Part shown: piece by piece, positions 3,558 through 60,995 of the stretch
Position numbering within the stretch: the first letter of the stretch is position 1
Layout of the letters: each line of letters opens with the position of its first letter
NCBI GenBank assembly: GCA_019828595.1
Contig: JAHQRK010000002.1
Location: 3,534,001-3,598,000 of the forward strand
Origin: Aphanomyces cochlioides
Lineage: Eukaryota > Oomycota > Saprolegniomycetes > Saprolegniales > Verrucalvaceae
DNA: 64,000 nucleotides
Reading direction: 5' to 3'
Made by a program: the position numbers and the translations under genes
The notes under the pieces: generated by a model
Told to the model about the DNA's origin: nothing
What the model saw: the letters and a program-made list of their open reading frames with translations, nothing else
Database searches by the model: none

Positions 3558-3916
3558 ATGATTGACAACAACTTCTCCGATGTCCCAACTGAACTCGTGG
3601 ACTGGGACCCACAAATCATCTCCCTCAACACCAATGGCTTCTCCAACAGTCATCGGTACATCCTCGACAAACTATCAAGTGTTCACGACGTTTCCTTTAT
3701 CCAAGAAACCCGTTTCCGCACGCCAAGTCTCCACGACCGTGTTGCGTTCCATTGGCAACGCATCACAAACCACGAAGGCTCTTTGTTCTTTGAAGAGCCT
3801 ATTTACCCTGAAGTATCCACGTCGCCAGCCACTGGAGGTCTGGCTACGTTGATACATCCTCACTCTCCTTTGAAGAACGCCACTCAAGTCCCTCATGGCA
3901 ACCCAGTGCTTCGTGG
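3558..3916 (+). pseudogene. ORF2 protein of copy B, fragment 1 (endonuclease N-terminus)
   Basis: The ATG at 3558 begins Met-Ile-Asp-Asn-Asn. The fragment covers about residues 1-119, including the first two conserved blocks of an APE-type (exonuclease-endonuclease-phosphatase fold) endonuclease: SLNTNGF (Asn24/Asn26) and FIQETRF (Glu50). The frame ends at a TAA created by the inserted 3' end of C at 3917. The gene resumes at 11314. It is disrupted by insertion and not expressible as a whole. Confidence 0.9.
3901..3916. repeat. Left TSD of copy C
   Basis: ACCCAGTGCTTCGTGG, 16 bp, is repeated exactly at 11298-11313 on the other side of C. It ends in TGG at the 3' junction. Confidence 0.95.
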
Positions 3917-4061
3917 TTAAATGAGTTGTATTAACCTTATTTTTGAGCAAAGGCCCTAATGACTTACTAATTTGCCTCGTACTGTATAAATAGAACTTGG
4001 AAAACAGAATATGGCAAAGTGGTCATTGAACAGGAGATGAAGTGGTGAGCCGTCAGCTCAC
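3917..4061 (-). promoter_or_regulatory. 3' UTR of copy C
   Basis: These are the 145 nt between the ORF2 TGA and the element end. A perfect 6-bp hairpin (GTGAGC/GCTCAC) follows the stop codon at once. Bases 3962-3982 are an inverted near-copy (19 of 21) of the element's 5' terminus. No poly(A) or simple-repeat tail is present. Confidence 0.8.
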
Positions 4062-7000
4062 TCATGAAACGACGCTGTTAGGAATGATGTGTTGACGTAA
4101 CCAGGGGTCCGAAGATAGATGCTTGAGCACATTGAATACCTTGGTGTATCCCTTCTTGAGAGGGAGATCAACCAGGAGCTGTTGTAGATGTAGCTTGATC
4201 AAAGAGGCAGCATGAATGGCAACTTCCATCGGACTCTTCGCTGTGAGGTCGGGTCGAAAGGTGCGATCGGCACGTTGGAGCCATATTTGATAATACACGC
4301 AGGCTCGGACAATCGGCCAGATCTTCAGATAGCCACGGATGTAGTATCCATCGGACGGCTTGGGCGTCTCGTAGAACATTTCCAGACACGTGGACGGAAA
4401 GGAACACTCGAGCAGTCGCTGGATTGTCTTGAAGAAATACCAAACAGATTGACCATATCCACAAGAGAACAGGAAATGCTCGTACGTCTCATTGACACGA
4501 CAGAAGACACACGTCGGCTTGGGGTCTTGGTACTGAAACAGATATTGCATGGCGTTGGCGCGGAGAAGGGTCTTGAAAATGAACTCTCCATATCGAGGGA
4601 GAATGTGGTCGGGTTGGAGGAAGGCGGCAAGTTGGGTAAGGCGCTTGGGGTCTTCGTAAAAGTTGGATGGCAGGTTGAGATGCTTGGTAGGAAGAATGGA
4701 CGAGCTGACAGCTGGAGAAGCTCTGATCTTAGCCGATTTCGAAGTCGCAAGCGCCAACAAGATCGGACTCGAGTCAGGGTGTATCATCCAGTGCCATTCC
4801 ATCCATTCAGAGCTTGGCGTCGGCAAGTGGAACACGGGAGCATCCTCTTCAGAAACAATCTCAAACAATCGTGATAACTTGGTCACCAAGATTGAGATCC
4901 ATTGTTTCGTTGGAGGGACAAAATTGGCTTGGCGGCAGGCACGGTTGATTTTGTCGAACAAGATCGAAGCTGGCCAAACTCGCTGGCACGGAGTCAACAA
5001 ATGCGACAACTTCGTGATGTGAAGCGAAGCCAATACATTGGCTTGGTCTTGCGTCGATGTAGAGCACTGATCGTATAGGTCTTCGAGTCCAGGCAGATAC
5101 GAGTTGTGCCAAAGGGGAACATCCAAAGATGAGATGTGATTTGGACAGCCGTACGGAGTCCAGCGGGATTCAAACCAGCTACTCAATAAGGCTTTCCACA
5201 TTGGAGTGATATTGGGATTCTTGTACAGTTGTCTGATGAATGCAGAAGAGCCATTTGCCAAGAGGAGATCTCGGGGGAACCCCATGGATGAAAAGCCTTC
5301 TCGAGGAGAGTATAGCCCGGCGTAATCCAGGCGGACATGGCAGACTTGCGGGGTGGGGTGGTGATGGCTTGAATGCATCTGATCATGACAGAGCGGTTGT
5401 GTTGTTGCCATAAAGCAAGTGCATGGTGCAGGCCTAAGCCACCGGACTTCTTCGGCATGAATAGGATCTCCTTTTTGATCAAACGGAGGCCATGGACAGA
5501 GGAGGATGGGTTGATTTCTTCACCATGCATAAATTGAAGCATGGCCTTGTCGATCTTTTTGGCCAGGTCTTTGTCGGCAGGGACAAAAGCCAGTTGGTAC
5601 CATAACACAGGCAGACATATGCTGTGCAGGATAGTGACTTTTCCGGCCATGGTTCGAGCCTTGTAGAGCCACAAAGACAAGCGAGCCACAAACTTCTCAA
5701 ACACGTAATTGAAACGTGCCAATGGAGAAAGATTGGGCGCAACCAAGATACCAAGAGCCTTCACGGGACTGTCGGAAGTAACTTGTAGTGAGGCAAGGTT
5801 CCCATTCAACTGGCTGTAGGTCAGAATTTGGGTCTTGTCTACGTTGAGTCGGAAACCAGACTTGTCGCAAAAGGTTTGAACCAATGCAAGCTGCCGGTGG
5901 AGGCACGTCTCATTTGCCGCATAGAGTTGCGAGTCGTCGGCAAAGTAACTCCCAGTGTGGTAGCGATCCCCACACTTGATGCCATAGTTGGAGTGTTGCC
6001 GTAGGAGTTGGCACATCGGTTCCAAAGCGATCACAAACAGAAGTGGCGACAGTGGATCACCTTGCAACACACCGCGTGAGATGTGAACTGGCTTGGACAA
6101 GAAGCCGTTCACCAAGATGCGAGACTTGCGGCCCGAGTACAGTACGCGAACCATGTCAACAAAGGTTTCGGGAAAGCCATAGTGACGGAGGACGCGGAGC
6201 AAGTACGCGTGGTCCACGCGATCAAAAGCTTTCTCAAAGTCAAGCAGTGCCACCATCGAGGACGGACTGTGTAGTTTGATGTGGTGCAGCATGTCATCCA
6301 GTCGTGCAATATTGGTTTGGATATTGCTTCGACGGATAAAGCCTTGCTGGTCCGGGTGGATGATGTGTCGAATGTGGCGCTGGAGTCGATAAGCCAGAAT
6401 ACTCGTCAGGATTTTCACATCCGTGTTGAGTAGGCTAATGGGCCGATAGTTCTTGGCCTGTGACTTGGGGCCTTTCTTGTGCAGCAACACCAGCGTACTG
6501 ACAAGTTGCATGGGAGTCAAGCGAGGGTGAGAATGGAGCTGGTGTGTGAATAGCAGCTCCAATACCAACGACCACTTGTGAGGTGCAAGTTTGAGGACTT
6601 CGAATGGCAGAGCGTTGGGACCTGGCGCTGAGTTCGAACTGCTGTGTCGAATAGCATGATAGAACTCGTTGGCGCGCAAGGGAGCCGACAGCTCTTTCTG
6701 GGCTTGCTCTGGCAGTTGCTTGTGTCGAGTCAATGGGGTCAGAAATGACGACACTTCGTCTCCAGATCGCTGCACGTCGGGAGCTGCAAACAAGTCCTTG
6801 TAGTAGTCGACCAGGACGTCAGACATGCCTTGTTGATTGGAGACAACATTTCCATTGACATCCACCAACTCTTTGAAGACTGTCTTCTTCAAGGGGGTAG
6901 GGACAGGGGACATGAAGTGGAACTTGGACGAGCGCTCTGCTTTGTACAAGTGAAGTTGGAACGCCTGGTCTTGACGAAACTGCTTGTCTCGATCTTGCAG

Positions 7001-11313: not shown

Positions 11314-11776
11314 TCGTTATCTACAAGTGCGATGTACTCTGGGTCCACTGACAGTCGTTCTCCAAAATATCTATGCGCCGGCAGCCTTCCAAGAACGAGC
11401 AAGTTACTTCGAAGAATTGCCACGCGACTTTCCTCCACATGCGCTCCACATTGTTGGAGGAGATTTCAACTGCACTCTCAACAAAGATTTGGATTCGTTG
11501 AGACCCAGTACCTCCACCATGGCCGGCACCCTTCAACTGGAACAATGGATGCACAGTTTGTCTCTGGTGGATCTGTTTCGCCGTCAAAACCCCGTGGCAA
11601 GAACCTTCACAAGTCCCACACTCACCAACCGACTCGACTACATCTTTTGTTCGTCCACCTTGGCGGGTCTTCGTCATTGGAAGGCGACGCACATGCCACA
11701 CGTTCCACAGGCTGACCACGTGGCTTGTCGTATCATCACAAAGCGTCAAACATTGCGCCATGGCTCTGGATCATGG
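11314..11776 (+). pseudogene. ORF2 protein of copy B, fragment 2 (endonuclease core)
   Basis: This continues the gene broken at 3916. It encodes about residues 120-274 with the catalytic blocks HIVGGDFNC (Asp170, Asn172), TNRLDYIF (Asp228) and QADHVAC (Asp254/His255). Together with fragment 1 the endonuclease domain is complete. The fragment is open and ends where the 3' terminus of D starts (11777). The next 37 bases of the gene are absent from the window, and the gene resumes at 29644. Confidence 0.9.
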
Positions 11777-15542: not shown

Positions 15543-15557
15543 TGAAGTGGAACTTGG
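15543..15557. repeat. Left TSD of the 40-bp mini-insertion
   Basis: TGAAGTGGAACTTGG, 15 bp, is repeated exactly at 15598-15612. It ends in TGG at the 3' junction. Confidence 0.93.
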
Positions 15558-15597
15558 TTAAATGAGTTGTATTAACCTTATTTTTGAGCAAAGGCCC
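15558..15597 (-). mobile_element. 40-bp LINE insertion, extreme 5' truncation
   Basis: It contains only the last 40 nt of the element (reverse strand, TTAAATGAG ... AAGGCCC), flanked by a perfect 15-bp TSD. It is a bona fide target-primed insertion in which reverse transcription stopped almost at once. One base (T) at the 5' junction is shared by element and target. It shows that the terminal 40 nt, without the inverted repeat or the post-stop hairpin, can remain as the sole product of an integration. Confidence 0.93.
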
Positions 15598-15612
15598 TGA
15601 AGTGGAACTTGG
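15598..15612. repeat. Right TSD of the 40-bp mini-insertion
   Basis: Exact partner of 15543-15557. Confidence 0.93.
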
Positions 15613-19977: not shown

Positions 19978-19994
19978 TCCACGAGTTCAGTTGG
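19978..19994. repeat. Inferred TSD copy at the 5' end of F
   Basis: TCCACGAGTTCAGTTGG, 17 bp, abuts the complete 5' end of F and ends in TGG. The same joint recurs at 23201 and 26422, as expected if it was copied by tandem duplication. Confidence 0.6.
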
Positions 19995-20021
19995 GACATC
20001 GGAGAAGTTGTTGTCAATCAT
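19978..20021 (-). pseudogene. ORF2 start stub of unit G1, fused to ORF1 of F
   Basis: Only 14 ORF2 codons from the ATG at 20019-20021 remain, ending in Thr-Glu-Leu-Val. Across the joint the frame continues into the 5' UTR and then ORF1 of F in the correct ORF1 frame, giving a chimeric reading frame until the short C run at 19659. The fusion is a by-product of the insertion point and I assign it no function. Confidence 0.75.
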
Positions 20022-20099
20022 CACGAGTACAGATGAAAATGAGTAGAATGGAGGGGTCAGAGGGGAGGTTGAAATGGATTGAAGCAGGGGATAGAAGCC

Positions 20100-23000
20100 T
20101 TAGAGTTGATCGTCCTCCAAATCGAGGGGATCAATTTCGTCGGCGTTCATGGAGTGGTGAGCTTTGCTGCAGAGCTCGTCGATGTGGTAATTGTTGGTGA
20201 TGCTTTTGAGCATCGAGATGGCCGACAAGACGGGAGCCGGCAAAGTGAACTTCTCGAGATTGTCGCTGAAGTTTTCGATCAAAGCAAACAGCGACCAGTC
20301 CGTCAAGCAGTTGGTGTCAGGCAATCTTGTTGCTTCTTGGTTCAATAGAACAGTCAGTGCCTCCGAGTTTGTGTAGAGGTCTGGGGCCCGATTTGAGAGG
20401 AATAAGTCAATCGTAGCAAGTGCAAAGAGGATGCGCTTGATCTCTGGTATGTCCGTGGTCAATTCTTCCAAGATTTCTGACGGGTGAATCTTGTATTGAG
20501 CCATGAAGTTGACGTGATGTTTGTAGTTGTGAGGCTTGCCTTGAGCTTTTAACAAAGCCATCTTGCGCTCAATAGTCTTGGTTGCAACAAGTGACTGAAA
20601 CAAACTGGGGTCTTCATCTTGTGCGTACATAGCATGTGCAACGAGCTGAGGGTCATCTCGCAAAATGCGTTGACATTCGGTGATACTGCCTTCGACTTTC
20701 TTATCTCGAATGATCTTCTTCGCCAATTCGAGGTGGGCTGCAGCAGACTTGTTAAGTCGTTGTTTCTTCGCTTTGCCTTTGGTCTTTTTCGGGCGTGGCG
20801 CACTTGAATCTTCCAATACAATTCGAGGCACTGCAAAGTCTTCAAACGAGAGTTCCACGTCGTCTTCTTCGAGGATATGAAAACGGTTGGATGTCGGCAG
20901 GGGATCCAAACGTGGGGACGAAGGCAAAGTACGTTTTGGAGCTGGTCCAGACCGGTAGCCCGTTACCAATTGAAGGTCCAGCGAGTTCTTGGGCTGCTCA
21001 CTTGGTGGAGCAAGAGCGGGCGATTCGTTGGTAGACATTTCCACATCTTCTTGTTGTTTGTCTTGTCCATTGTTGTTAGGGGGATCGCTGTCACCAGACA
21101 TATCGACATCAGAGCCATGAGAAGGAGCTGTTGGCTGTGGTTGTTCATCTTGACGATCTCCAGATGCCTCAGTTGAGTCGGCCTTGCCTTCCGCATTTGT
21201 TCCAGGGTCTTGATCATGATCGTCTCCATCATGTTCAGGTTCTTTTTCTCCTGACGGAGGAGATTTTGCCGCTGCCTTGGCCGCTTTTGCCTTCGCTTTT
21301 TCAGCCTTGGCCTCTGCACGTCGTGAAACAATCGACGGAGGCAATGTCTTGTTCAGAGCAGCGATCTTGTGCTGAAACACGACGACAAAAGGCTGACCCG
21401 ACGGATCCGTAATGGTGATTTCGCGTAGTGCGTCGCCGGATTTTGGCACCAGCACTGCAGGAGGCGCAGACGACTTGAAAATGACTCTCAAATGCGGCGA
21501 CTTGATGTTCTGACCAGCAGTAGGGTTGAATGCTGCTATCACTGACTTGGTCAATGCAGCCATTTTCTTGACAATCGCCTTGGCCATCGAAGGGTGACTG
21601 ACCTTGTTGAACGTAACGTAGTAGTTGTTGCCATAACGCGAGTACTTGGGAACCAGGAAGTCTTTGCCACCAAGTCGAAACGTTGTGCCTCCCATTTCCA
21701 CGCACGTAGACAAGTTGTAACTTGAGATCACAATGGTCTGTGGGTTCTTCTTGTGGATCAAAATGTTCGGAAATTTGGAGCCCCATAACGAACCAGGATT
21801 TTCCTTGACAAATTGATCGCAGATGACTTTTTCGGACCAGTCCTTGTAGCCTTCGCCCAACTTGACTGTGAGCTCGTACACTTGGGACTGGGGGGTGAGC
21901 AAAATGTTTTCAATGAAGGCGTCCATGTCACCAGAGTCTTTGTAGAATGCGTCCGCCATGGCCTCGCATCGCGCAATATCGTCATCGGCAATAGCATGAG
22001 CACCAGTGTTGCGATGTTTCGCGCCTTTGGGAGCATTGCCTTGCTTGGAATCTTTCTTGGACGAAGCTGAATCCTTGCCGGGAGTCTTTTGCGTCCATGG
22101 ATTGGCCTTTTCAGCGTTTTGTTGCTCTTGATCGCCTTGTATTTTGTCTGCCGCGGTAGGAGGATCAACAGCGCCATTTCCTTGAGCAACGGATTTGTCG
22201 ACAATGTCTTGATTTGACTGGTCATTGTCATTGTTTGTCGATTGTTCCTCTTGAATAACTTCTCCAGGAGTATCACACGGCTTCGCTTGGCCGTTAATGT
22301 CGCCTGACCCATCAACCTCCGAGTGAATTTGAGTATTTCCCTCGTCGGTTAAGGCCTCGGTTTCAGTAGAATCCTTCCCCTCGGCGTCTCCAGAGACCAT
22401 ATCCACGTCCTCTTGAGATTTTTCTTCTTCCTCTCCCGTTCTAGGAGGCTCAGCACAGGGGGCGACGCGGTTGGTGGCTGCTGGCTCAGTCCCATTGGTC
22501 ACGAGAAAGGCCGGGGCCAGACCCCCAGTGACAGGGGTAGAAGGGGAATCCATGCCATCCCCGCAGCACGGTGACTGGGGTACACCATTGCTCCGGCGAG
22601 AACCCAAATCGGGATACCGCCCCCGCCCCTCCGAAGAGGCCCCTGGGGGGAAGTAGACAGAACCGCAGGGTGTGCCCATAGGGGGGGCCCTCGTAGCCTC
22701 TAGGGCTGGCATGGACCCCGTTTTCTCGCCGCCTTCACTGGGGATCGACTCCAATTGGAGTCCAGGGAAGCAGCCACCACAGGCACAAGGCCCCAGTGGT
22801 TCGCCCTCCTGAGTGAGGGCTTCGCTAGACAAGTTAACGACAGTGGTCTGGGGGTCAACCACTGACCCACTGAGGTTGACCCCCCCCTGGAACTCCGGCG
22901 AGTGGAGCACCAGGTGAAGCGCTGGGGGAGCGAGACGCAGATTGGTCTCCAGAGACGCTGTTGGGGTCGAACTCGACCTCCACTTCGGCCCTAGGGTTAG

Positions 23001-23139
23001 GTGTAGAGACATTACTCACACCACTTCCGCCATCCTGATTGGACGACGAAAGTGGGTGAGGTGATACAATACCTGGAATGATGGTGACTCCGTGAGTGTT
23101 GGTCTCACGGAGCTCGGAACAGCTGTTGGCGTTGGACAT
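20100..23139 (-). pseudogene. ORF1 protein of unit G1, one frameshift
   Basis: The gene runs from the ATG at 23137-23139 to the TAA at 20100-20102. The C run at 22880-22887 has 8 bases instead of 7, the only visible lesion. The 970-codon frame downstream of it is otherwise normal: acidic region, central domain (421 to about 600), Lys/Ala stretch, basic patch and helical C-terminus. Its sequence is almost identical to G2 and G3, which have 7 bases at this site. The extra base is therefore recent or an assembly error. Confidence 0.88.
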
Positions 23140-23200
23140 TTTGAGCGCGGCGGCACTTGATAACTTCTTGACTTGAGGGGTACGAGGCAAATTCGGAAGT

Positions 23201-26200
23201 TCCACGAGTTCAGTTGGGACATCGGAGAAGTTGTTGTCAATCATCACGAGTACAGATGAAAATGAGTAGAATGGAGGGGTCAGAGGGGAGGTTGAAATGG
23301 ATTGAAGCAGGGGATAGAAGCCTTAGAGTTGATCGTCCTCCAAATCGAGGGGATCAATTTCGTCGGCGTTCATGGAGTGGTGAGCTTTGCTGCAGAGCTC
23401 GTCGATGTGGTAATTGTTGGTGATGCTTTTGAGCATCGAGATGGCCGACAAGACGGGAGCCGGCAAAGTGAACTTCTCGAGATTGTCGCTGAAGTTTTCG
23501 ATCAAAGCAAACAGCGACCAGTCCGTCAAGCAGTTGGTGTCAGGCAATCTTGTTGCTTCTTGGTTCAATAGAACAGTCAGTGCCTCCGAGTTTGTGTAGA
23601 GGTCTGGGGCCCGATTTGAGAGGAATAAGTCAATCGTAGCAAGTGCAAAGAGGATGCGCTTGATCTCTGGTATGTCCGTGGTCAATTCTTCCAAGATTTC
23701 TGACGGGTGAATCTTGTATTGAGCCATGAAGTTGACGTGATGTTTGTAGTTGTGAGGCTTGCCTTGAGCTTTTAACAAAGCCATCTTGCGCTCAATAGTC
23801 TTGGTTGCAACAAGTGACTGAAACAAACTGAGGTCTTCATCTTGTGCGTACATAGCATGTGCAACGAGCTGAGGGTCATCTCGCAAAATGCGTTGACATT
23901 CGGTGATACTGCCTTCGACTTTCTTATCTCGAATGATCTTCTTCGCCAATTCGAGGTGGGCTGCAGCAGACTTGTTAAGTCGTTGTTTCTTCGCTTTGCC
24001 TTTGGTCTTTTTCGGGCGTGGCGCACTTGAATCTTCCAATACAATTCGAGGCACTGCAAAGTCTTCAAACGAGAGTTCCACGTCGTCTTCTTCGAGGATA
24101 TGAAAACGGTTGGATGTCGGCAGGGGATCCAAACGTGGGGACGAAGGCAAAGTACGTTTTGGAGCTGGTCCAGACCGGTAGCCCGTTACCAATTGAAGGT
24201 CCAGCGAGTTCTTGGGCTGCTCACTTGGTGGAGCAAGAGCGGGCGATTCGTTGGTAGACATTTCCACATCTTCTTGTTGTTTGTCTTGTCCATTGTTGTT
24301 AGGGGGATCGCTGTCACCAGACATGTCGACATCAGAGCCATGAGAAGGAGCTGTTGGCTGTGGTTGTTCATCTTGACGATCTCCAGATGCCTCAGTTGAG
24401 TCGGCCTTGCCTTCCGCATTTGTTCCAGGGTCTTGATCATGATCGTCTCCATCATGTTCAGGTTCTTTTTCTCCTGACGGAGGAGATTTTGCCGCTGCCT
24501 TGGCCGCTTTTGCCTTCGCTTTTTCAGCCTTGGCCTCTGCACGTCGTGAAACAATCGACGGAGGCAATGTCTTGTTCAGAGCAGCGATCTTGTGCTGAAA
24601 CACGACGACAAAAGGCTGACCCGACGGATCCGTAATGGTGATTTCGCGTAGTGCGTCGCCGGATTTTGGCACCAGCACTGCAGGAGGCGCAGACGACTTG
24701 AAAATGACTCTCAAATGCGGCGACTTGATGTTCTGACCAGCAGTAGGGTTGAATGCTGCTATCACTGACTTGGTCAATGCAGCCATTTTCTTGACAATCG
24801 CCTTGGCCATCGAAGGGTGACTGACCTTGTTGAACGTAACGTAGTAGTTGTTGCCATAACGCGAGTACTTGGGAACCAGGAAGTCTTTGCCACCAAGTCG
24901 AAACGTTGTGCCTCCCATTTCCACGCACGTAGACAAGTTGTAACTTGAGATCACAATGGTCTGTGGGTTCTTCTTGTGGATCAAAATGTTCGGAAATTTG
25001 GAGCCCCATAACGAACCAGGATTTTCCTTGACAAATTGATCGCAGATGACTTTTTCGGACCAGTCCTTGTAGCCTTCGCCCAACTTGACTGTGAGCTCGT
25101 ACACTTGGGACTGGGGGTGAGCAAAATGTTTTCAATGAAGGCGTCCATGTCACCAGAGTCTTTGTAGAATGCGTCCGCCATGGCCTCGCATCGCGCAATA
25201 TCGTCATCGGCAATAGCATGAGCACCAGTGTTGCGATGTTTCGCGCCTTTGGGAGCATTGCCTTGCTTGGAATCTTTCTTGGACGAAGCTGAATCCTTGC
25301 CGGGAGTCTTTTGCGTCCATGGATTGGCCTTTTCAGCGTTTTGTTGCTCTTGATCGCCTTGTATTTTGTCTGCCGCGGTAGGAGGATCAACAGCGCCATT
25401 TCCTTGAGCAACGGATTTGTCGACAATGTCTTGATTTGACTGGTCATTGTCATTGTTTGTCGATTGTTCCTCTTGAATAACTTCTCCAGGAGTATCACAC
25501 GGCTTCGCTTGGCCGTTAATGTCGCCTGACCCATCAACCTCCGAGTGAATTTGAGTATTTCCCTCGTCGGTTAAGGCCTCGGTTTCAGTAGAATCCTTCC
25601 CCTCGGCGTCTCCAGAGACCATATCCACGTCCTCTTGAGATTTTTCTTCTTCCTCTCCCGTTCTAGGAGGCTCAGCACAGGGGGCGACGCGGTTGGTGGC
25701 TGCTGGCTCAGTCCCATTGGTCACGAGAAAGGCCGGGGCCAGACCCCCAGTGACAGGGGTAGAAGGGGAATCCATGCCATCCCCGCAGCACGGTGACTGG
25801 GGTACACCATTGCTCCGGCGAGAACCCAAATCGGGATACCGCCCCCGCCCCTCCGAAGAGGCCCCTGGGGGGAAGTAGACAGAACCGCAGGGTGTGCCCA
25901 TAGGGGGGGCCCTCGTAGCCTCTAGGGCTGGCATGGACCCCGTTTTCTCGCCGCCTTCACTGGGGATCGACTCCAATTGGAGTCCAGGGAAGCAGCCACC
26001 ACAGGCACAAGGCCCCAGTGGTTCGCCCTCCTGAGTGAGGGCTTCGCTAGACAAGTTAACGACAGTGGTCTGGGGGTCAACCACTGACCCACTGAGGTTG
26101 ACCCCCCCTGGAACTCCGGCGAGTGGAGCACCAGGTGAAGCGCTGGGGGAGCGAGACGCAGATTGGTCTCCAGAGACGCTGTTGGGGTCGAACTCGACCT

Positions 26201-26421
26201 CCACTTCGGCCCTAGGGTTAGGTGTAGAGACATTACTCACACCACTTCCGCCATCCTGATTGGACGACGAAAGTGGGTGAGGTGATACAATACCTGGAAT
26301 GATGGTGACTCCGTGAGTGTTGGTCTCACGGAGCTCGGAACAGCTGTTGGCGTTGGACATTTTGAGCGCGGCGGCACTTGATAACTTCTTGACTTGAGGG
26401 GTACGAGGCAAATTCGGAAGT
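23201..26421 (-). repeat. Tandem unit G2 (3221 bp)
   Basis: Second head-to-tail unit with the same start and end points as G1. It begins with the ORF2 stub 23201-23244, whose frame is fused in phase to the ORF1 start of G1. It is 2 bp shorter than G1 because of its 7-base C run and a 5-base G run at 25113-25117. Confidence 0.9.
23323..26360 (-). pseudogene. ORF1 protein of unit G2, one frameshift
   Basis: The gene runs from the ATG at 26358-26360 to the TAA at 23323-23325. The G run at 25113-25117 has 5 instead of 6 bases, at about residue 415, just before the structured domain. It divides the protein into an acidic N-terminal half of about 415 codons and a C-terminal part of about 590 codons, each fully open. 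G1 and G3 have 6 bases at this site, so the change is private to G2 and is a candidate assembly error. Confidence 0.88.
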
Positions 26422-34448: not shown

Positions 34449-35713
34449 ATGAGTGACAACAACTTCTCCGATGTCCCAACTGAACTCGTGGACTGGGACC
34501 CACAAATCATCTCCCTCAACACCAATGGCTTCTCCAACAGTCATCGGTACATCCTCGACAAACTATCAAGTGTTCACGACGTTTCCTTTATCCAAGAAAC
34601 CCGTTTCCGCACGCCAAGTCTCCACGACCGTGTTGCGTTCCATTGGCAACGCATCACAAACCACGAAGGCTCTTTGTTCTTTGAAGAGCCTATTTACCCT
34701 GAAGTATCCACGTCGCCAGCCACTGGAGGTCTGGCTACGTTGATACATCCTCACTCTCCTTTGAAGAACGCCACTCAAGTCCCTCATGACAACCCAGTGC
34801 TTCGTGGTCGTTATCTACAAGTGCGATGTACTCTGGGTCCACTGACAGTCGTTCTCCACAATATCTATGCGCCGGCAGCCTTCCAAGAACGAGCAAGTTA
34901 CTTCGAAGAATTGCCACGCGACTTTCCTCCACATGCGCTCCACATTGTTGGAGGAGATTTCAACTGCACTCTCAATAAAGATTTGGATTCGTTGAGACCC
35001 AGTACCTCCACCATGGCCGGCACCCTTCAACTGGAACAATGGATGCACAGTTTGTCTCTGGTGGATCTGTTTCGTCGTCAAAACCCCGTGGCACGAGCCT
35101 TCACAAGTCCCACACTCACCAACCGACTTGACTACATCTTTTGTTCGTCCACCTTGGCGGGTCTTCGTCATTGGAAGGCGACGCACATGCCACACGTTCC
35201 ACAGGCTGACCACGTGGCTTGTCGTATCATCACAAAGCGTCAAACATTGCGCCATGGCTCTGGATCATGGAAAGCTCCAACTTGGCTACTTCGTCTACCA
35301 CGAGCGGCCGAGATTGTTCATGGATGTCTGGATCGATTTTTGGACAAGTCTCCAACATTCCACAATATCTCCAAGGCCTACGACATGCTGGTCAATGATA
35401 TCCGCTCCCAACTCAAAGAATTCCATTCTCAACGATTGGAGAAACAACGTCTGCCGTTGAAAAAGTTAGCTGTCGAGATCGCTTCGCTTTTGCAAGTCCC
35501 CAACATGCGTCAAGATTCAGTGCTGGTGGATCGAGTGCGAGACCTTCAAAAGCAAATTCACGAGCTGCAAGATCGAGACAAGCAGTTTCGTCAAGACCAG
35601 GCGTTCCAACTTCACTTGTACAAAGCAGAGCGCTCGTCCAAGTTCCACTTCATGTCCCCTGTCCCTACCCCCTTGAAGAAGACAGTCTTCAAAGAGTTGG
35701 TGGATGTCAATGG
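34449..35713 (+). pseudogene. ORF2 protein of copy H, fragment 1
   Basis: The ATG at 34449 starts Met-Ser-Asp-Asn-Asn. About 421 codons encode the complete endonuclease domain (motifs QET, GGDFN, RLDYIF, ADH) and the charged linker, ending at Val-Asp-Val-Asn-Gly. The 3' end of I at 35714 interrupts it. The gene resumes at 47920. Confidence 0.9.
35699..35713. repeat. Left TSD of copy I
   Basis: GGTGGATGTCAATGG, 15 bp, is repeated at 47905-47919. The two bases before it (TT) also match, by microhomology. Confidence 0.93.
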
Positions 35714-38800: not shown

Positions 38801-39843
38801 CTCGTGAATTTGCTTTTGAAGGTCTCGCACTCGATCCACCAGCACTGCATCTTGACGCATGTTGGGGACTTGCAAAAGCGAAGCGATCTCGACAGCTAAC
38901 TTCTTCAACGGCAGACGTTGTTTCTCCAATCGTTGAGAATGGAATTCTTTGAGTTGGGAGCGGATATCATTGACCAGCATGTCGTAGGCCTTGGAGATAT
39001 TGTGGAATGTTGGAGACTTGTCCAAAAATCGATCCAGACATCCATGAACAATCTCGGCCGCTCGTGGTAGACGAAGTAGCCAAGTTGGAGCTTTCCATGA
39101 TCCAGAGCCATGGCGCAATGTTTGACGCTTTGTGATGATACGACAAGCCACGTGGTCAGCCTGTGGAACGTGTGGCATGTGCGTCGCCTTCCAATGACGA
39201 AGACCCGCCAAGGTGGACGAACAAAAGATGTAGTCGAGTCGGTTGGTGAGTGTGGGACTTGTGAAGGTTCTTGCCACGGGGTTTTGACGGCGAAACAGAT
39301 CCACCAGAGACAAACTGTGCATCCATTGTTCCAGTTGAAGGGTGCCGGCCATGGTGGAGGTACTGGGTCTCAACGAATCCAAATCTTTGTTGAGAGTGCA
39401 GTTGAAATCTCCTCCAACAATGTGGAGCGCATGTGGAGGAAAGTCGCGTGGCAATTCTTCGAAGTAACTTGCTCGTTCTTGGAAGGCTGCCGGCGCATAG
39501 ATATTGTGGAGAACGACTGTCAGTGGACCCAGAGTACATCGCACTTGTAGATAACGACCACGAAGCACTGGGTTGTCATGAGGGACTTGAGTGGCGTTCT
39601 TCAAAGGAGAGTGAGGATGTATCAACGTAGCCAGACCTCCAGTGGCTGGCGACGTGGATACTTCAGGGTAAATAGGCTCTTCAAAGAACAAAGAGCCTTC
39701 GTGGTTTGTGATGCGTTGCCAATGGAACGCAACACGGTCGTGGAGACTTGGCGTGCGGAAACGGGTTTCTTGGATAAAGGAAACGTCGTGAACACTTGAT
39801 AGTTTGTCGAGGATGTACCGATGACTGTTGGAGAAGCCATTGG
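35859..39843 (-). pseudogene. ORF2 protein of copy I, main part
   Basis: Holds about residues 25-1351, down to the TGA at 35859-35861. The frame is broken by two extra bases at 36931-36932 (GAGAAATG for GAGATG), about 360 codons before the stop, between the RT and the zinc motif. The G run at the usual frameshift site near 37072-37077 has the full 6 bases. The first 24 codons lie beyond J at 47239-47311. Insertion of J and the 2-bp insertion both inactivate it. Confidence 0.9.
39830..39843. repeat. Left TSD of copy J
   Basis: GGAGAAGCCATTGG, 14 bp, is repeated exactly at 47225-47238. Confidence 0.95.
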
Positions 39844-47919: not shown

Positions 47920-50490
47920 AAATGTTGTCTCCAATCAACAAGGCATGTCTGACGTCCTGGTCGAATACTACAAGGACTTGTTTGCAGCTCCCGAGGTGCA
48001 GCGATCTGGAGACGAAGTGTCGTCATTTCTGACCCCATTGACTCGACACAAGCAACTGCCAGAGCAAGCCCAGAAAGAGCTGTCGGCTCCCTTGCGCGCC
48101 AACGAGTTCTATCATGCTATTCGACACAGCAGTTCGAACTCAGCGCCAGGTCCCAACGCTCTGCCATTCGAAGTCCTCAAACTTGCACCTCACAAGTGGT
48201 CGTTGGTATTGGAGCTGCTATTCACACACCAGCTCCATTCTCACCCTCGCTTGACTCCCATGCAACTTGTCAGTACGCTGGTGTTGCTGCACAAGAAAGG
48301 CCCCAAGTCACAGGCCAAGAACTATCGGCCCATTAGCCTACTCAACACGGATGTGAAAATCCTGACGAGTATTCTGGCTTATCGACTCCAGCGCCACATT
48401 CGACACATCATCCACCCGGACCAGCAAGGCTTTATCCGTCGAAGCAATATCCAAACCAATATTGCACGACTGGATGACATGCTGCACCACATCAAACTAC
48501 ACAGTCCGTCCTCGATGGTGGCACTGCTTGACTTTGAGAAAGCTTTTGATCGCGTGGACCACGCGTACTTGCTCCGCGTCCTCCGTCACTATGGCTTTCC
48601 CGAAACCTTTGTTGACATGGTTCGCGTACTGTACTCGGGCCGCAAGTCTCGCATCTTGGTGAACGGCTTCTTGTCCAAGCCAGTTCACATCTCACGCGGT
48701 GTGTTGCAAGGTGATCCACTGTCGCCACTTCTGTTTGTGATCGCTTTGGAACCGATGTGCCAACTCCTACGGCAACACTCCAACTATGGCATCAAGTGTG
48801 GGGATCGCTACCACACTGGGAGTTACTTTGCCGACGACTCGCAACTCTATGCTGCAAATGAGACGTGCCTCCACCGGCAGCTTGCATTGGTTCAAACCTT
48901 TTGCGACAAGTCGGGTTTCCGACTCAACGTAGACAAGACCCAAATTCTGACCTACAGCCAGTTGAATGGGAACCTTGCCTCACTACAAGTTACTTCCGAC
49001 AGTCCCGTGAAGGCTCTTGGTATCTTGGTTGCGCCCAATCTTTCTCCATTGGCACGTTTCAATTACGTGTTTGAGAAGTTTGTGGCTCGCTTGTCTTTGT
49101 GGCTCTACAAGGCTCGAACCATGGCCGGAAAAGTCACTATCCTGCACAGCATATGTCTGCCTGTGTTATGGTACCAACTGGCTTTTGTCCCTGCCGACAA
49201 AGACCTGGCCAAAAAGATCGACAAGGCCATGCTTCAATTTATGCATGGTGAAGAAATCAACCCATCCTCCTCTGTCCATGGCCTCCGTTTGATCAAAAAG
49301 GAGATCCTATTCATGCCGAAGAAGTCCGGTGGCTTAGGCCTGCACCATGCACTTGCTTTATGGCAACAACACAACCGCTCTGTCATGATCAGATGCATTC
49401 AAGCCATCACCACCCCACCCCGCAAGTCTGCCATGTCCGCCTGGATTACGCCGGGCTATACTCTCCTCGAGAAGGCTTTTCATCCATGGGGTTCCCCCGA
49501 GATCTCCTCTTGGCAAATGGCTCTTCTGCATTCATCAGACAACTGTACAAGAATCCCAATATCACTTCAATGTGGAAAGCCTTATTGAGTAGCTGGTTTG
49601 AATCCCGCTGGACTCCGTACGGCTGTCCAAATCACATCTCATCTTTGGATGTTCCCCTTTGGCACAACTCGTATCTGCCTGGACTCGAAGACCAATACGA
49701 TCAGTGCTCTACATCGACGCAAGACCAAGCCAATGTATTGGCTTCGCTTCACATCACGAAGTTGTCGCATTTGTTGACTCCGTGTCAGCGAGTTTGGCCA
49801 GCTTCGATCTTGTTCGACAAAATCAACCGTGCCTGCCGCCAAGCCAATTTTGTCCCTCCAACGAAACAATGGATCTCAATCTTGGTGACCAAGTTATCAC
49901 GATTGTTTGAGATTGTTTCTGAAGAGGATGCTCCCGTGTTCCACTTGCCGACGCCAAGCTCTGAATGGATGGAATGGCACTGGATGATACACCCTGACTC
50001 GAGTCCGATCTTGTTGGCGCTTGCGACTTCGAAATCGGCTAAGATCAGAGCTTCTCCAGCTGTCAGCTCGTCCATTCTTCCTACCAAGCATCTCAACCTG
50101 CCATCCAACTTTTACGAAGACCCCAAGCGCCTTACCCAACTTGCCGCCTTCCTCCAACCCGACCACATTCTCCCTCGATATGGAGAGTTCATTTTCAAGA
50201 CCCTTCTCCGCGCCAACGCCATGCAATATCTGTTTCAGTACCAAGACCCCAAGCCGACGTGTGTCTTCTGTCGTGTCAATGAGACGTACGAGCATTTCCT
50301 GTTCTCTTGTGGATATGGTCAATCTGTTTGGTATTTCTTCAAGACGATCCAGCGACTGCTCGAGTGTTCCTTTCCGTCGACTTGTCTGGAAATGTTCTAC
50401 GAGACGCCCAAGCCGTCCGATGGATACTACATCCGTGGCTATCTGAAGATCTGGCCGATTGTCCGAGCCTGCGTGTATTATCAAATATGG
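47920..50490 (+). pseudogene. ORF2 protein of copy H, fragment 2 (RT and C-terminal part)
   Basis: Covers about residues 422-1279: RT motif A LDFEKAFD, motif B GVLQGDPLSP, FADD, thumb, and the zinc motif CX2CX7HX4C near 50266-50316. The C run at 49494-49498 has 5 instead of 6 bases and shifts the frame about 530 codons into the fragment; the same lesion is seen in C and D. The fragment ends at the 3' terminus of K (50491), and the last 73 codons are at 59118-59336. Confidence 0.9.
50475..50490. repeat. Left TSD of copy K
   Basis: GTATTATCAAATATGG, 16 bp, is repeated exactly at 59102-59117. Confidence 0.95.
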
Positions 50491-50559
50491 TTAAATGAGT
50501 TGTATTAACCTTATTTTTGAGCAAAGGCCCTAATGACTTACTAATTTGCCTCGTACTGT

Positions 50560-50574
50560 ATAAATAGAACTTGG
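50560..50574. repeat. Left TSD of copy L
   Basis: ATAAATAGAACTTGG, 15 bp, is repeated at 57953-57967. Two further bases (GT) match because the element 5' end also finishes in GT on this strand. Confidence 0.94.
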
Positions 50575-50719: not shown

Positions 50720-53700
50720 TCATGAAACGACACTGTCAGGAATGGCGTGTTGACGTAACCAGGGGTCCGAAGATAGATGCTTGAGCACATTGAATACCTT
50801 GGTGTATCCCTTCTTGAGAGGGAGATCAACCAGGAGCTGTTGTAGATGTAGCTTGATCAAAGAGGCAGCATGAATGGCAACTTCCATCGGACTCTTCGCT
50901 GTGAGGTCGGGTCGAAAGGTGCGATCGGCACGTTGGAGCCATATTTGATAATACACGCAGGCTCGGACAATCGGCCAGATCTTCAGATAGCCACGGATGT
51001 AGTATCCATCGGACGGCTTGGGCGTCTCGTAGAACATTTCCAGACACGTGGACGGAAAGGAACACTCGAGCAGTCGCTGGATTGTCTTGAAGAAATACCA
51101 AACAGATTGACCATATCCACAAGAGAACAGGAAATGCTCGTACGTCTCATTGACACGACAGAAGACACACGTCGGCTTGGGGTCTTGGTACTGAAACAGA
51201 TATTGCATGGCGTTGGCGCGGAGAAGGGTCTTGAAAATGAACTCTCCATATCGAGGGAGAATGTGGTCGGGTTGGAGGAAGGCGGCAAGTTGGGTAAGGC
51301 GCTTGGGGTCTTCGTAAAAGTTGGATGGCAGGTTGAGATGCTTGGTAGGAAGAATGGACGAGCTGACAGCTGGAGAAGCTCTGATCTTAGCCGATTTCGA
51401 AGTCGCAAGCGCCAACAAGATCGGACTCGAGTCAGGGTGAATTATCCAGTGCCATTCCATCCATTCAGAGCTTGGCGTCGGCAAGTGGAACACGGGAGCA
51501 TCCTCTTCAGAAACAATCTCAAACAATCGTGATAACTTGGTCACCAAGATTGAGATCCATTGTTTCGTTGGAGGGACAAAATTGGCTTGGCGGCAGGCAC
51601 GGTTGATTTTGTCGAACAAGATCGAAGCTGGCCAAACTCGCTGACACGGAGTCAACAAATGCGACAACTTCGTGATGTGAAGCGAAGCCAATACATTGGC
51701 TTGGTCTTGCGTCGATGTAGAGCACTGATCGTATAGGTCTTCGAGTCCAGGCAGATACGAGTTGTGCCAAAGGGGAACATCCAAAGATGAGATGTGATTT
51801 GGACAGCCGTACGGAGTCCAGCGGGATTCAAACCAGCTACTCAATAAGGCTTTCCACATTGGAGTGATATTGGGATTCTTGTACAGTCGTCTGATGAATG
51901 CAGAAGAGCCATTTGCCAAGAGGAGATCTCGGGGGGAACCCCATGGATGAAAAGCCTTCTCGAGGAGAGTATAGCCCGGCGTAATCCAGGCGGACATGGC
52001 AGACTTGCGGGGTGGGGTGGTGATGGCTTGAATGCATCTGATCATGACAGAGCGGTTGTGTTGTTGCCATAAAGCAAGTGCATGGTGCAGGCCTAAGCCA
52101 CCGGACTTCTTCGGCATGAATAGGATCTCCTTTTTGATCAAACGGAGGCCATGGACAGAGGAGGATGGGTTGATTTCTTCACCATGCATAAATTGAAGCA
52201 TGGCCTTGTCGATCTTTTTGGCCAGGTCTTTGTCGGCAGGGACAAAAGCCAGTTGGTACCATAACACAGGCAGACATATGCTGTGCAGGATAGTGACTTT
52301 TCCGGCCATGGTTCGAGCCTTGTAGAGCCACAAAGACAAGCGAGCCACAAACTTCTCAAACACGTAATTGAAACGTGCCAATGGAGAAAGATTGGGCGCA
52401 ACCAAGATACCAAGAGCCTTCACGGGACTGTCGGAAGTAACTTGTAGTGAGGCAAGGTTCCCATTCAACTGGCTGTAGGTCAGAATTTGGGTCTTGTCTA
52501 CGTTGAGTCGGAAACCAGACTTGTCGCAAAAGGTTTGAACCAATGCAAGCTGCCGGTGGAGGCACGTCTCATTTGCAGCATAGAGTTGCGAGTCGTCGGC
52601 AAAGTAACTCCCAGTGTGGTAGCGATCCCCACACTTGATGCCATAGTTGGAGTGTTGCCGTAGGAGTTGGCACATCGGTTCCAAAGCGATCACAAACAGA
52701 AGTGGCGACAGTGGATCACCTTGCAACACACCGCGTGAGATGTGAACTGGCTTGGACAAGAAGCCGTTCACCAAGATGCGAGACTTGCGGCCCGAGTACA
52801 GTACGCGAACCATGTCAACAAAGGTTTCGGGAAAGCCATAGTGACGGAGGACGCGGAGCAAGTACGCGTGGTCCACGCGATCAAAAGCTTTCTCAAAGTC
52901 AAGCAGTGCCACCATCGAGGACGGACTGTGTAGTTTGATGTGGTGCAGCATGTCATCCAGTCGTGCAATATTGGTTTGGATATTGCTTCGACGGATAAAG
53001 CCTTGCTGGTCCGGGTGGATGATGTGTCGAATGTGGCGCTGGAGTCGATAAGCCAGAATACTCGTCAGGATTTTCACATCCGTGTTGAGTAGGCTAATGG
53101 GCCGATAGTTCTTGGCCTGTGACTTGGGGCCTTTCTTGTGCAGCAACACCAGCGTACTGACAAGTTGCATGGGAGTCAAGCGAGGGTGAGAATGGAGCTG
53201 GTGTGTGAATAGCAGCTCCAATACCAACGACCACTTGTGAGGTGCAAGTTTGAGGACTTCGAATGGCAGAGCGTTGGGACCTGGCGCTGAGTTCGAACTG
53301 CTGTGTCGAATAGCATGATAGAACTCGTTGGCGCACAAGGGAGCCGACAGCTCTTTCTGGGCTTGCTCTGGCAGTTGCTTGTGTCGAGTCAATGGGGTCA
53401 GAAATGACGACACTTCGTCTCCAGATCGCTGCACCTCGGGAGCTGCAAACAAGTCCTTGTAGTATTCGACCAGGACGTCAGACATGCCTTGTTGATTGGA
53501 GACAACATTTCCATTGACATCCACCAACTCTTTGAAGACTGTCTTCTTCAAGGGGGTAGGGACAGGGGACATGAAGTGGAACTTGGACGAGCGCTCTGCT
53601 TTGTACAAGTGAAGTTGGAACGCCTGGTCTTGACGAAACTGCTTGTCTCGATCTTGCAGCTCGTGAATTTGCTTTTGAAGGTCTCGCACTCGATCCACCA

Positions 53701-54775
53701 GCACTGCATCTTGACGCATGTTGGGGACTTGCAAAAGCGAAGCGATCTCGACAGCTAACTTCTTCAACGGCAGACGTTGTTTCTCCAATCGTTGAGAATG
53801 GAATTCTTTGAGTTGGGAGCGGATATCATTGACCAGCATGTCGTAGGCCTTGGAGATATTGTGGAATGTTGGAGACTTGTCCAAAAATCGATCCAGACAT
53901 CCATGAACAATCTCGGCCGCTCGTGGTAGACGAAGTAGCCAAGTTGGAGCTTTCCATGATCCAGAGCCATGGCGCAATGTTTGACGCTTTGTGATGATAC
54001 GACAAGCCACGTGGTCAGCCTGTGGAACGTGTGGCATGTGCGTCGCCTTCCAATGACGAAGACCCGCCAAGGTGGACGAACAAAAGATGTAGTCGAGTCG
54101 GTTGGTGAGTGTGGGACTTGTGAAGGCTCGTGCCACGGGGTTTTGACGACGAAACAGATCCACCAGAGACAAACTGTGCATCCATTGTTCCAGTTGAAGG
54201 GTGCCGGCCATGGTGGAGGTACTGGGTCTCAACGAATCCAAATCTTTGTTGAGAGTGCAGTTGAAATCTCCTCCAACAATGTGGAGCGCATGTGGAGGAA
54301 AGTCGCGTGGCAATTCTTCGAAGTAACTTGCTCGTTCTTGGAAGGCTGCCGGCGCATAGATATTGTGGAGAACGACTGTCAGTGGACCCAGAGTACATCG
54401 CACTTGTAGATAACGACCACGAAGCACTGAGTTGTCATGAGGGACTTGAGTGGCGTTCTTCAAAGGAGAGTGAGGATGTATCAACGTAGCCAGACCTCCA
54501 GTGGCTGGCGACGTGGATACTTCAGGGTAAATAGGCTCTTCAAAGAACAAAGAGCCTTCGTGGTTTGTGATGCGTTGCCAATGGAACGCAACACGGTCGT
54601 GGAGACTTGGCGTGCGGAAACGGGTTTCTTGGATAAAGGAAACGTCGTGAACACTTGATAGTTTGTCGAGGATGTACCGATGACTGTTGGAGAAGCCATT
54701 GGTGTTGAGGGAGATGATTTGTGGGTCCCAGTCCACGAGTTCAGTTGGGACATCGGAGAAGTTGTTGTCAATCAT
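50720..54775 (-). CDS. ORF2 protein of copy L, intact: APE endonuclease, reverse transcriptase, zinc motif (1351 residues)
   Basis: Open from the ATG at 54773-54775 to the TGA at 50720-50722. Residues 1 to about 260 are an APE-type endonuclease that nicks target DNA: SLNTNGF (Asn24/26), QET (Glu50), GGDFN (Asp170, Asn172), RLDYIF (Asp228), ADH (Asp254/His255). About 285-450 is a charged, partly coiled-coil-like linker. The RT lies around 500-830: NYRPISLLN, LDFEKAFD (Asp626), GVLQGDPLSP (Gly-Asp 686-687) and FADD (725-728, catalytic aspartates 727-728). A C-terminal CX2CX7HX4C motif spans 1203-1219. No RNase H domain is evident. The order fits L1/Tx1-like LINEs, where this protein performs target-primed reverse transcription in the nucleus. 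All listed catalytic residues are present, so activity is plausible. Confidence 0.95.
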   Translation of the reverse strand: MIDNNFSDVPTELVDWDPQIISLNTNGFSNSHRYILDKLSSVHDVSFIQETRFRTPSLHDRVAFHWQRITNHEGSLFFEEPIYPEVSTSPATGGLATLIHPHSPLKNATQVPHDNSVLRGRYLQVRCTLGPLTVVLHNIYAPAAFQERASYFEELPRDFPPHALHIVGGDFNCTLNKDLDSLRPSTSTMAGTLQLEQWMHSLSLVDLFRRQNPVARAFTSPTLTNRLDYIFCSSTLAGLRHWKATHMPHVPQADHVACRIITKRQTLRHGSGSWKAPTWLLRLPRAAEIVHGCLDRFLDKSPTFHNISKAYDMLVNDIRSQLKEFHSQRLEKQRLPLKKLAVEIASLLQVPNMRQDAVLVDRVRDLQKQIHELQDRDKQFRQDQAFQLHLYKAERSSKFHFMSPVPTPLKKTVFKELVDVNGNVVSNQQGMSDVLVEYYKDLFAAPEVQRSGDEVSSFLTPLTRHKQLPEQAQKELSAPLCANEFYHAIRHSSSNSAPGPNALPFEVLKLAPHKWSLVLELLFTHQLHSHPRLTPMQLVSTLVLLHKKGPKSQAKNYRPISLLNTDVKILTSILAYRLQRHIRHIIHPDQQGFIRRSNIQTNIARLDDMLHHIKLHSPSSMVALLDFEKAFDRVDHAYLLRVLRHYGFPETFVDMVRVLYSGRKSRILVNGFLSKPVHISRGVLQGDPLSPLLFVIALEPMCQLLRQHSNYGIKCGDRYHTGSYFADDSQLYAANETCLHRQLALVQTFCDKSGFRLNVDKTQILTYSQLNGNLASLQVTSDSPVKALGILVAPNLSPLARFNYVFEKFVARLSLWLYKARTMAGKVTILHSICLPVLWYQLAFVPADKDLAKKIDKAMLQFMHGEEINPSSSVHGLRLIKKEILFMPKKSGGLGLHHALALWQQHNRSVMIRCIQAITTPPRKSAMSAWITPGYTLLEKAFHPWGSPRDLLLANGSSAFIRRLYKNPNITPMWKALLSSWFESRWTPYGCPNHISSLDVPLWHNSYLPGLEDLYDQCSTSTQDQANVLASLHITKLSHLLTPCQRVWPASILFDKINRACRQANFVPPTKQWISILVTKLSRLFEIVSEEDAPVFHLPTPSSEWMEWHWIIHPDSSPILLALATSKSAKIRASPAVSSSILPTKHLNLPSNFYEDPKRLTQLAAFLQPDHILPRYGEFIFKTLLRANAMQYLFQYQDPKPTCVFCRVNETYEHFLFSCGYGQSVWYFFKTIQRLLECSFPSTCLEMFYETPKPSDGYYIRGYLKIWPIVRACVYYQIWLQRADRTFRPDLTAKSPMEVAIHAASLIKLHLQQLLVDLPLKKGYTKVFNVLKHLSSDPWLRQHAIPDSVVS

Positions 54776-54853
54776 CACGAGTACAGATGAAAATGAGTAG
54801 AATGGAGGGGTCAGAGGGGAGGTTGAAATGGATTGAAGCAGGGGATAGAAGCC
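54776..54853 (-). other. 78-nt inter-ORF spacer of copy L
   Basis: Pyrimidine-rich in the sense strand, 26 stop-free codons in phase with both ORFs. How ORF2 is translated (reinitiation, internal entry or readthrough of UAA) cannot be read from the sequence. Confidence 0.8.
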
Positions 54854-59481: not shown

Positions 59482-59651
59482 TCACCAACCGACTCGACTA
59501 CATCTTTTCTTCGTCCACCTTGGCGGGTCTTCGTCATTGGAAGGCGACGCACATGCCACACGTTCCACAGGCTGACCACGTGGCTTGTCGTATCATCACA
59601 AAGCGTCAAACATTGCGCCATGGCTCTGGATCATGGAAAGCTCCAACTTGG
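59482..59651 (+). pseudogene. ORF2 protein of copy M, fragment 1
   Basis: About residues 224-280, from TNRLDYIF (catalytic Asp228) through QADHVAC to the N insertion point. One residue differs from all other copies: Phe-Ser-Ser instead of Phe-Cys-Ser after the RLDYI block. The N-terminal endonuclease part is missing because of the joint with H. Confidence 0.85.
59637..59651. repeat. Left TSD of copy N
   Basis: AAAGCTCCAACTTGG, 15 bp, is repeated at 60981-60995; one more G before it also matches. Confidence 0.94.
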
Positions 59652-60980
59652 TTAAATGAGTTGTATTAACCTTATTTTTGAGCAAAGGCCCTAATGACTT
59701 ACTAATTTGCCTCGTACTGTATAAATAGAACTTGGAAAACAGAATATGGCAAAGTGGTCATTGAACAGGAGATGAAGTGGTGAGCCGTCAGCTCACTCAT
59801 GAAACGACACTGTCAGGAATGGCGTGTTGACGTAACCAGGGGTCCGAAGATAGATGCTTGAGCACATTGAATACCTTGGTGTATCCCTTCTTGAGAGGGA
59901 GATCAACCAGGAGCTGTTGTAGATGTAGCTTGATCAAAGAGGCAGCATGAATGGCAACTTCCATCGGACTCTTCGCTGTGAGGTCGGGTCGAAAGGTGCG
60001 ATCGGCACGTTGGAGCCATATTTGATAATACACGCAGGCTCGGACAATCGGCCAGATCTTCAGATAGCCACGGATGTAGTATCCATCGGACGGCTTGGGC
60101 GTCTCGTAGAACATTTCCAGACACGTGGACGGAAAGGAACACTCGAGCAGTCGCTGGATTGTCTTGAAGAAATACCAAACAGATTGACCATATCCACAAG
60201 AGAACAGGAAATGCTCGTACGTCTCATTGACACGACAGAAGACACACGTCGGCTTGGGGTCTTGGTACTGAAACAGATATTGCATGGCGTTGGCGCGGAG
60301 AAGGGTCTTGAAAATGAACTCTCCATATCGAGGGAGAATGTGGTCGGGTTGGAGGAAGGCGGCAAGTTGGGTAAGGCGCTTGGGGTCTTCGTAAAAGTTG
60401 GATGGCAGGTTGAGATGCTTGGTAGGAAGAATGGACGAGCTGGCAGCTGGAGAAGCTCTGATCTTAGCCGATTTCGAAGTCGCAAACGCCAACAAGATCG
60501 GACTCGAGTCAGGGTGAATTATCCAGTGCCATTCCATCCATTCAGAGCTTGGCGTCGGCAAGTGGAACACGGGAGCATCCTCTTCAGAAACAATCTCAAA
60601 CAATCGTGATAACTTGGTCACCAAGATTGAGATCCATTGTTTCGTTGGAGGGACAAAATTGGCTTGGCGGCAGGCACGGTTGATTTTGTCGAACAAGATC
60701 GAAGCTGGCCAAACTCGCTGACACGGAGTCAACAAATGCGACAACTTCGTGATGTGAAGCGAAGCCAATACATTGGCTTGGTCTTGCGTCGATGTAGAGC
60801 ACTGATCGTATAGGTCTTCGAGTCCAGGCAGATACGAGTTGTGCCAAAGGGGAACATCCAAAGATGAGATGTGATTTGGACAGCCGTACGGAGTCCAGCG
60901 GGATTCAAACCAGCTACTCAATAAGGCTTTCCACATTGGAGTGATATTGGGATTCTTGTACAGTCGTCTGATGAATGCAG
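59652..60980 (-). mobile_element. LINE copy N, 5'-truncated (1.33 kb)
   Basis: Complete 3' end at 59652, truncated in ORF2 at 60980, flanked by a 15-bp TSD, opposite to its host M. Standard product of incomplete target-primed reverse transcription, with one base of microhomology at the 5' junction. Confidence 0.95.
59797..60980 (-). pseudogene. ORF2 protein of copy N, C-terminal 394 codons
   Basis: Open from the truncation point to the TGA at 59797-59799, containing the zinc motif CX2CX7HX4C but neither endonuclease nor RT. At the truncation the frame continues leftwards into antisense M sequence, which is incidental. No function is expected. Confidence 0.88.
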
Positions 60981-60995
60981 AAAGCTCCAACTTGG
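60981..60995. repeat. Right TSD of copy N
   Basis: Exact partner of 59637-59651. Confidence 0.94.

Follow-up and report, generated by a model that had tools for sequence, protein, structure and literature searches.

Which bases a long interspersed nuclear element (LINE) demands at the site where it inserts is a question raised by positions 3534001-3598000 of contig 12 in the 76-Mb genome of the oomycete Aphanomyces cochlioides. This stretch of 64,000 nt (hereafter the window) consists largely of copies of one LINE nested in one another on both strands. An initial annotation of the window proposed for this element, which encodes an apurinic/apyrimidinic endonuclease (APE), a strict WTGG nick site for target priming, seen in 13 of 13 readable targets. 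When counted over the whole genome, the landing rule is a near-invariant GG directly before the LINE 3' end, with T favoured before the GG and weak preferences beyond it, and the strict form of the annotated motif did not hold.

The exact 20-base 3' end of the LINE was found at 737 places in the genome. These are places and not independent events, duplicated insertions contributing repeatedly (as with CGG places spaced about 907 apart on contig 4), and copies with an altered 3' end are excluded. An inner 25-mer was found at 720 places, including, among the places listed, two on contig 1 that are missing from the 20-mer list. The bases directly before the 3' end were GG at 686 of the 737 places (93%) and TGG at 481 (65%), the other triplets being AGG (77), CGG (69), GGG (59, by subtraction), TGA (22) and a remainder of 29.

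A sample of 99 of the first 100 listed 3'-end places (contigs 1-4) and the window contained 113 occurrences in the sampled DNA, some of them seen in two loci, which collapsed to 88 distinct flanks at a length of 40 nt and to 84 at 16 nt. Among the latter, 78 possessed GG before the 3' end (TGG 54, AGG 12, CGG 6, GGG 6), compared with a window background of 6.2% (p about 1e-86), and the others read TGA (4), ATA (1) and GGT (1). The background for TGG was 2.4%, and the TGG enrichment anticipated by the initial annotation for a genome-wide logo of the nick was recovered in this partial sample. T preceded GG in 54 of 78 flanks, a share that is 39% among GG sites of the background (p = 5.5e-8). The information content at the nick was about 1.9 bits at -2, 1.6 at -1, 0.6 at -3 and 0.2 at -4, and the 84 distinct flanks had only positions -4 to -1 in common. 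The A or T annotated before TGG persisted as a weak preference (39 of 56 distinct 40-nt TGG flanks), not as a strict one. A second motif further upstream was also considered at -20 (p = 0.005) and -32 (p = 0.008) and was rejected, as neither position was significant after correction for 60 positions.

Concerning the genomic surroundings of these flanks, 76 of the 88 matched the LINE itself, the insertions lying in the orientation of the host copy in 44 cases and in the opposite orientation in 32. Eleven of the 12 flanks outside the LINE also ended in GG, the twelfth being the ATA flank, and on visual inspection about seven of these 12 appear to belong to a single repeat other than the LINE.

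Within the window, the priming strand ended in TGG directly before TTAAATGAG at eight of nine exact 3' junctions (Table 1). The ninth, on the minus strand at 59481, follows TGA, reading GGTTGGTGA then TTAAATGAG, and departs from the TGG that had been annotated at every readable target; insertion-free copies of this target also carry TGA. The inserts share a common 3' end and range from 40 nt (15558-15597) to 7381 nt, a size reached by two of them. Target duplications, identified by matching the junctions to target copies without an insertion, were recovered at six of the nine junctions (16, 15, 14, 16, 17 and 16 nt), of which five lie within the 14-16 bp annotated and the sixth extends the range to 14-17 nt. 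At nine of ten window 5' ends, three of which are copies within one array and three of which belong to insertions whose 3' junction is already included above, CCA begins 14-16 nt upstream in the element sense. The tenth 5' end, at 31270, has CCA at 21 or CCG at 15 and a run of A before the element. This run (31264-31269) lies between CCATGGCCGGAAAAG and the LINE 5' end and probably consists of bases added without a template.

Table 1. Coordinates of the LINE coding region, target-site features and tandem array in the window (3' junctions as plus-strand coordinates).
Feature	Positions	Strand	3' junction	Details
Open reading frame ORF2, 1352 aa, open	50720..54778	-		APE-type endonuclease (about residues 1-260) and reverse transcriptase
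Endonuclease domain (about)	54011..54778	-		PF03372 match, L1 endonuclease structures, residues kept in relatives
Left target duplication, 16 nt	3901..3916	+	3917	ACCCAGTGCTTCGTGG; nick after TGG; antisense element starts at 3917; insert 7381 nt, followed by right duplication copy; empty site TGG then TCGTTATC
TGG before 3' end	11774..11776	+	11777	target GGATCATGG then AAAGCTCC; no duplication matched
40-nt mini-insertion of LINE 3' end	15543..15612	+	15558	insert 15558-15597; flanking 15-nt duplication TGAAGTGGAACTTGG
TGG before 3' end	35711..35713	+	35714	target GTCAATGG then AAATGTTG; no duplication matched
Target duplication, 14 nt	39830..39843	+	39844	GGAGAAGCCATTGG; insert 39844-47224 (7381 nt), then right copy
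Target duplication, 16 nt	50475..50490	+	50491	GTATTATCAAATATGG; insertion 50491-59101, contains a nested insertion
Target duplication, 17 nt	50558..50574	+	50575	GTATAAATAGAACTTGG; insertion 50575-57950 into 3' tail of the 50491-59101 insertion; accompanied by a tandem 84-nt signal
Target duplication, 16 nt	59636..59651	+	59652	GAAAGCTCCAACTTGG; insertion 59652-60979, followed by right duplication copy at 60980-60995
Exception, TGA (TCA on +) before 3' end	59482..59484	-	59481	target GGTTGGTGA then GTGTGGG; no duplication matched
Tandem array of LINE 5' 3.2 kb	19978..29644 (wider: 16757-29644)	-		spacing 3221-3223

As a TGG derived from the template would appear at the 3' side only, the opposite end of the insertions was inspected as well, using the flanks to the right of full-length 5' ends. 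Of 188 such ends in total, the first 100 were listed and 80 of these were sampled; array repeats, four window ends and the last five listed were left out. These flanks collapsed to 64 distinct ones. A GG ended 12-19 nt past the element in 59 of them, whereas six control windows, each eight positions wide, gave counts of 18-30. With the narrower interval of 13-17 nt, such a GG was present in 56 of the 64 flanks, and nine further windows of 5 nt contained one in 10-20. The motif was therefore present in the target before insertion. In addition, an insertion-free copy of the target was located for 75 of the 88 distinct 3' flanks, and the motif lies inside the duplication both in the window insertions and in one further locus (L034; 14-17 nt). 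On contigs 1, 3 and 4, pairing with a 5' flank of the same contig over 12-17 nt was possible for 13 distinct 3' flanks (8 TGG, 3 AGG, 1 GGG and 1 TGA; two of them pair with one 5' flank). The TGA insertion with a matching 5' flank is the pair L104 and L123, and TGA targets yield TGA/TTAAATG with no G added; the junction bases thus derive from the target and not from the template. Together with the GG-ending flanks outside the LINE, these results uphold the core of the initial annotation, namely a nick-site rule for target priming by an APE-type LINE.

The proposed reader of this motif lies in ORF2. PF03372 and PF00078 (RVT_1) were both matched within one reading frame in two window ORFs (50720-54778 and 36791-39877). 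The closest relative of the ORF2 protein, named Aphanomyces euteiches, is 97% identical across its length, and relatives named A. astaci show 69-75% identity over 39-89% of the query; with further relatives included, the ORF2 identities span 43-75%. The closest solved chains are those of L1 ORF2p (E = 2e-62), R2 being farther (E = 2e-27). The NIYAP, GDFN and DH blocks of the endonuclease align with L1 and are kept in all eight aligned sequences (the window LINE and seven relatives), with one variable position in NIYAP; an N-terminal SLNTN and a QET are likewise kept in 8 of 8. We take these five blocks to hold the catalytic residues. The LR1 and LTX chains of the PDB were also among the endonuclease structure matches, and we assume them to be L1 endonucleases with grafted loops that say nothing on kinship with R1 or Tx1. 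The shared constant 3' end, the variable 5' truncation and the target duplications at six of nine window junctions all agree with membership of the LINE class.

Taken together, these features suggest an L1-like LINE that would insert through target-primed reverse transcription. The AP-type endonuclease would nick one strand directly after GG, with T favoured at -3, leaving a ...NGG-3'OH end that would prime copying of the LINE RNA from its fixed 3' terminus, ...CAUUUAA. Priming from this terminus would give a copy reading NGG then TTAAATGAG, and a cut of the second strand about 12-17 bp away would produce duplications starting with CC(A) in the element sense. That the AP-type endonuclease nicks NGG and that reverse transcription begins at the fixed UUAA end is, in our view, the likely course of events. 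The DNA itself shows the motif at the target, the constant 3' end, the duplications and the open ORF2; from these we infer that the endonuclease domain reads the NGG nick site, and that the endonuclease itself, not a later step, presumably chooses the GG.

Since the LINE mostly hits itself, the GG could conversely reflect base composition, or a few G-rich sites copied many times. The 76 of 88 distinct flanks located in the LINE would fit, as would the evenly spaced copies of one junction that do occur. This reading was nevertheless rejected, because GG remained in 78 of 84 flanks after duplicates were removed, against 6.2% in the same sequence, and because flanks outside the LINE end in GG in 11 of 12 cases; we regard it as extremely improbable. 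The TGG could also be part of the element, the RNA ending in CCA (e.g. through a CCA-adding enzyme) and being copied as TGG. Judged by the 3' junctions alone, this would fit, as such an RNA would leave three recurrent bases next to a fixed 3' end, but AGG, CGG, GGG and TGA flanks occur, and the same bases stand in the insertion-free copies and at the distant 5' side. The 5'-side test refutes CCA-tailed RNA as the sole source of TGG, and we give this explanation next to no credence.

A selection of the site by primer-template pairing deserves more weight, although we still hold it to be unlikely. If a read-through RNA ended in ...UUAACCA, only nicked ends in (T)GG would pair and prime, and the landing preference would be inherited from the flank of the parent copy. 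Any copy that has landed after NGG necessarily has CC(N) beyond its 3' end, the most frequent flank (CCA) fits the most frequent target (TGG), and a 2026 paper on Bov-B proposes that repeats at the RNA 3' end may influence the cleavage site (PMC13295347). On the other hand, TGA targets (22 of 737) start at the same UUAA, so GG-CC pairing is not strictly required, and no carried-over parental flank was seen by eye in the 88 distinct flanks, where no systematic test was made. A landing rule inherited only in part, the CC(A) past the 3' end of the transcript annealing to the next nicked (T)GG, appears to us improbable; if true, the target preference would be set jointly by the RNA flank and the endonuclease, and could drift as the flank of a lineage changes.

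Several observations weigh against nicking at NGG by the endonuclease as a complete account. No GG stands at -2/-1 in 51 of the 737 places (22 TGA and 29 others). Two sampled flanks that are neither GG nor TGA read ...GTGGT and ...GTGGATA, and could be TGG with extra bases or true other sites. At the 5' side, five of the 64 flanks have no GG at 12-19 nt; three of these carry GG at 8-11 and L123 has TGA at 13, while L149 is not accounted for. Three of the nine window junctions yielded no duplication when matched to insertion-free copies. The preferences beyond the core are uncertain, with uncorrected p values of 0.007-0.03: C was depleted at -4 (5 of 78, p = 0.007) and T at +1 (5 of 66, p = 0.02), and +3 and +8 showed preferences at p = 0.03. 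Finally, primer-template pairing could add to the GG preference.

Concerning the ends of the LINE RNA, the last 100 nt folded no better than shuffled sequences (z = 0.32). Of the opening 22 bases of the LINE (GACTTCCGAATTTGCCTCGTAC), 20 are identical to the antisense strand of its 3' tail, as seen at window positions 31270 (a 5' end) and 3961, which lies 44 nt away from a 3' end; the two RNA ends could therefore pair. A pair of copies on contig 4 (245630-245690; L106) lies tail to tail, the 3' ends being separated by 21 bases and both following GG. The window also contains a 398-aa frame on the plus strand (14065-15261) with no Pfam match.

LINE 5' pieces repeated head to tail at a constant spacing form arrays on contigs 1, 5, 9 and 19 as well as in the window, where the units join at CCAACTGAACTCGTGG then AACTTCCG, a duplication starting with CCA. 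The unit length was close to the LINE coordinate of the joint in the window (3221-3223 and 3222) and on contigs 1 (935 and 936), 5 (1480 and 1477, with 4 extra bases) and 9 (1797 and 1798), and unequal to it on contig 19 (1035 and 1632). Equality of the two values shows only that the units are unbroken 5' pieces. As in a normal insertion, GG lies 13-17 nt from the 5' end at all five joints examined; this suggests an origin of the arrays by nested insertion in the same orientation followed by unequal exchange.

At the genome scale, the listed 3' and 5' ends gather, on each contig, in about one stretch of some 0.1-0.45 Mb, as mapped from the first 100 places listed for 3' ends, TGG and 5' ends (the listed TGG places reaching contig 8) together with the AGG, CGG and TGA places. 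This stretch lies inside contigs 8, 9, 12, 16, 17, 19 and 23 (contig 17 from two places) and at the end of contigs 1, 3, 4, 5 and 21, with stray places on contigs 1, 2, 6 and 14. GG occurs about 69 times per kb on the plus strand of the window and is far too common for the nick rule to explain this clustering, so something else must. By analogy with Zepp in Coccomyxa and ZeppL in Chlamydomonas, which are thought to mark centromeres (PMC3446292, PMC8226300), the clusters are possibly the centromeres of this oomycete; those of another oomycete, Phytophthora sojae, are instead rich in a Copia-like element (PMC7082073). No match was obtained to a TTTAGGG repeat pattern, sought as a sign of a telomere link; the tool or the assembly may be responsible, or the telomeres may carry a different repeat.

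The element resembles mammalian L1 in carrying endonuclease and reverse transcriptase in one ORF2, in its nearest solved structures, and in target-primed insertion, duplications and 5' truncation. Human L1, however, prefers 5'-TT/AAAA-3' (PMC13295347) and the mammalian L1 3' end is poly(A) (PMC3747384), whereas neither is found in the window LINE, whose nicked strand ends in GG and whose fixed 3' end ...CATTTAA sets TTAA directly against the target. With Tx1 and R1, the two clades named as holding site-specific members (PMC13295347), it shares an APE-type endonuclease, but it accepts any NGG and is not bound to one long target sequence. The nested self-insertion clusters of Zepp and ZeppL in green algae, one per chromosome (PMC3446292, PMC8226300), have a possible counterpart in the nested clusters described here, about one per contig among the places listed, contigs not being chromosomes; the host here is an oomycete, and the likeness is one of cluster pattern.

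The initial annotation fairly described APE-type LINEs as usually having looser preferences: most of them may have weak preferences (PMC13295347). The same 2026 paper states that duplications have mostly been studied for mammalian L1 and that surveys of other clades may reveal new insertion signatures. Neither a GG-core LINE nor an oomycete LINE insertion signature was reported in the titles and abstract openings listed from the open-licence literature searched. With hundreds of GG-core copies and uninterrupted targets for 75 of 88 flanks, it would be simple to probe in vitro which bases the endonuclease recognises. Similar in behaviour are the ingi-clade LINEs of trypanosomatids, described as having "relative site specificity" with a conserved first-nick motif (PMC3820030), as the window LINE likewise has a conserved nick motif, with a GG core, across many flanks. 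The motif of ingi6 reaches about ten bases upstream and its duplications measure 12 bp, whereas here the motif spans 2-4 bases at the nick and the duplications 12-17 bp. Like the weak preferences of other APE-type LINEs, the GG rule is short and graded, so it differs from them in degree and in its bases without being new in kind.

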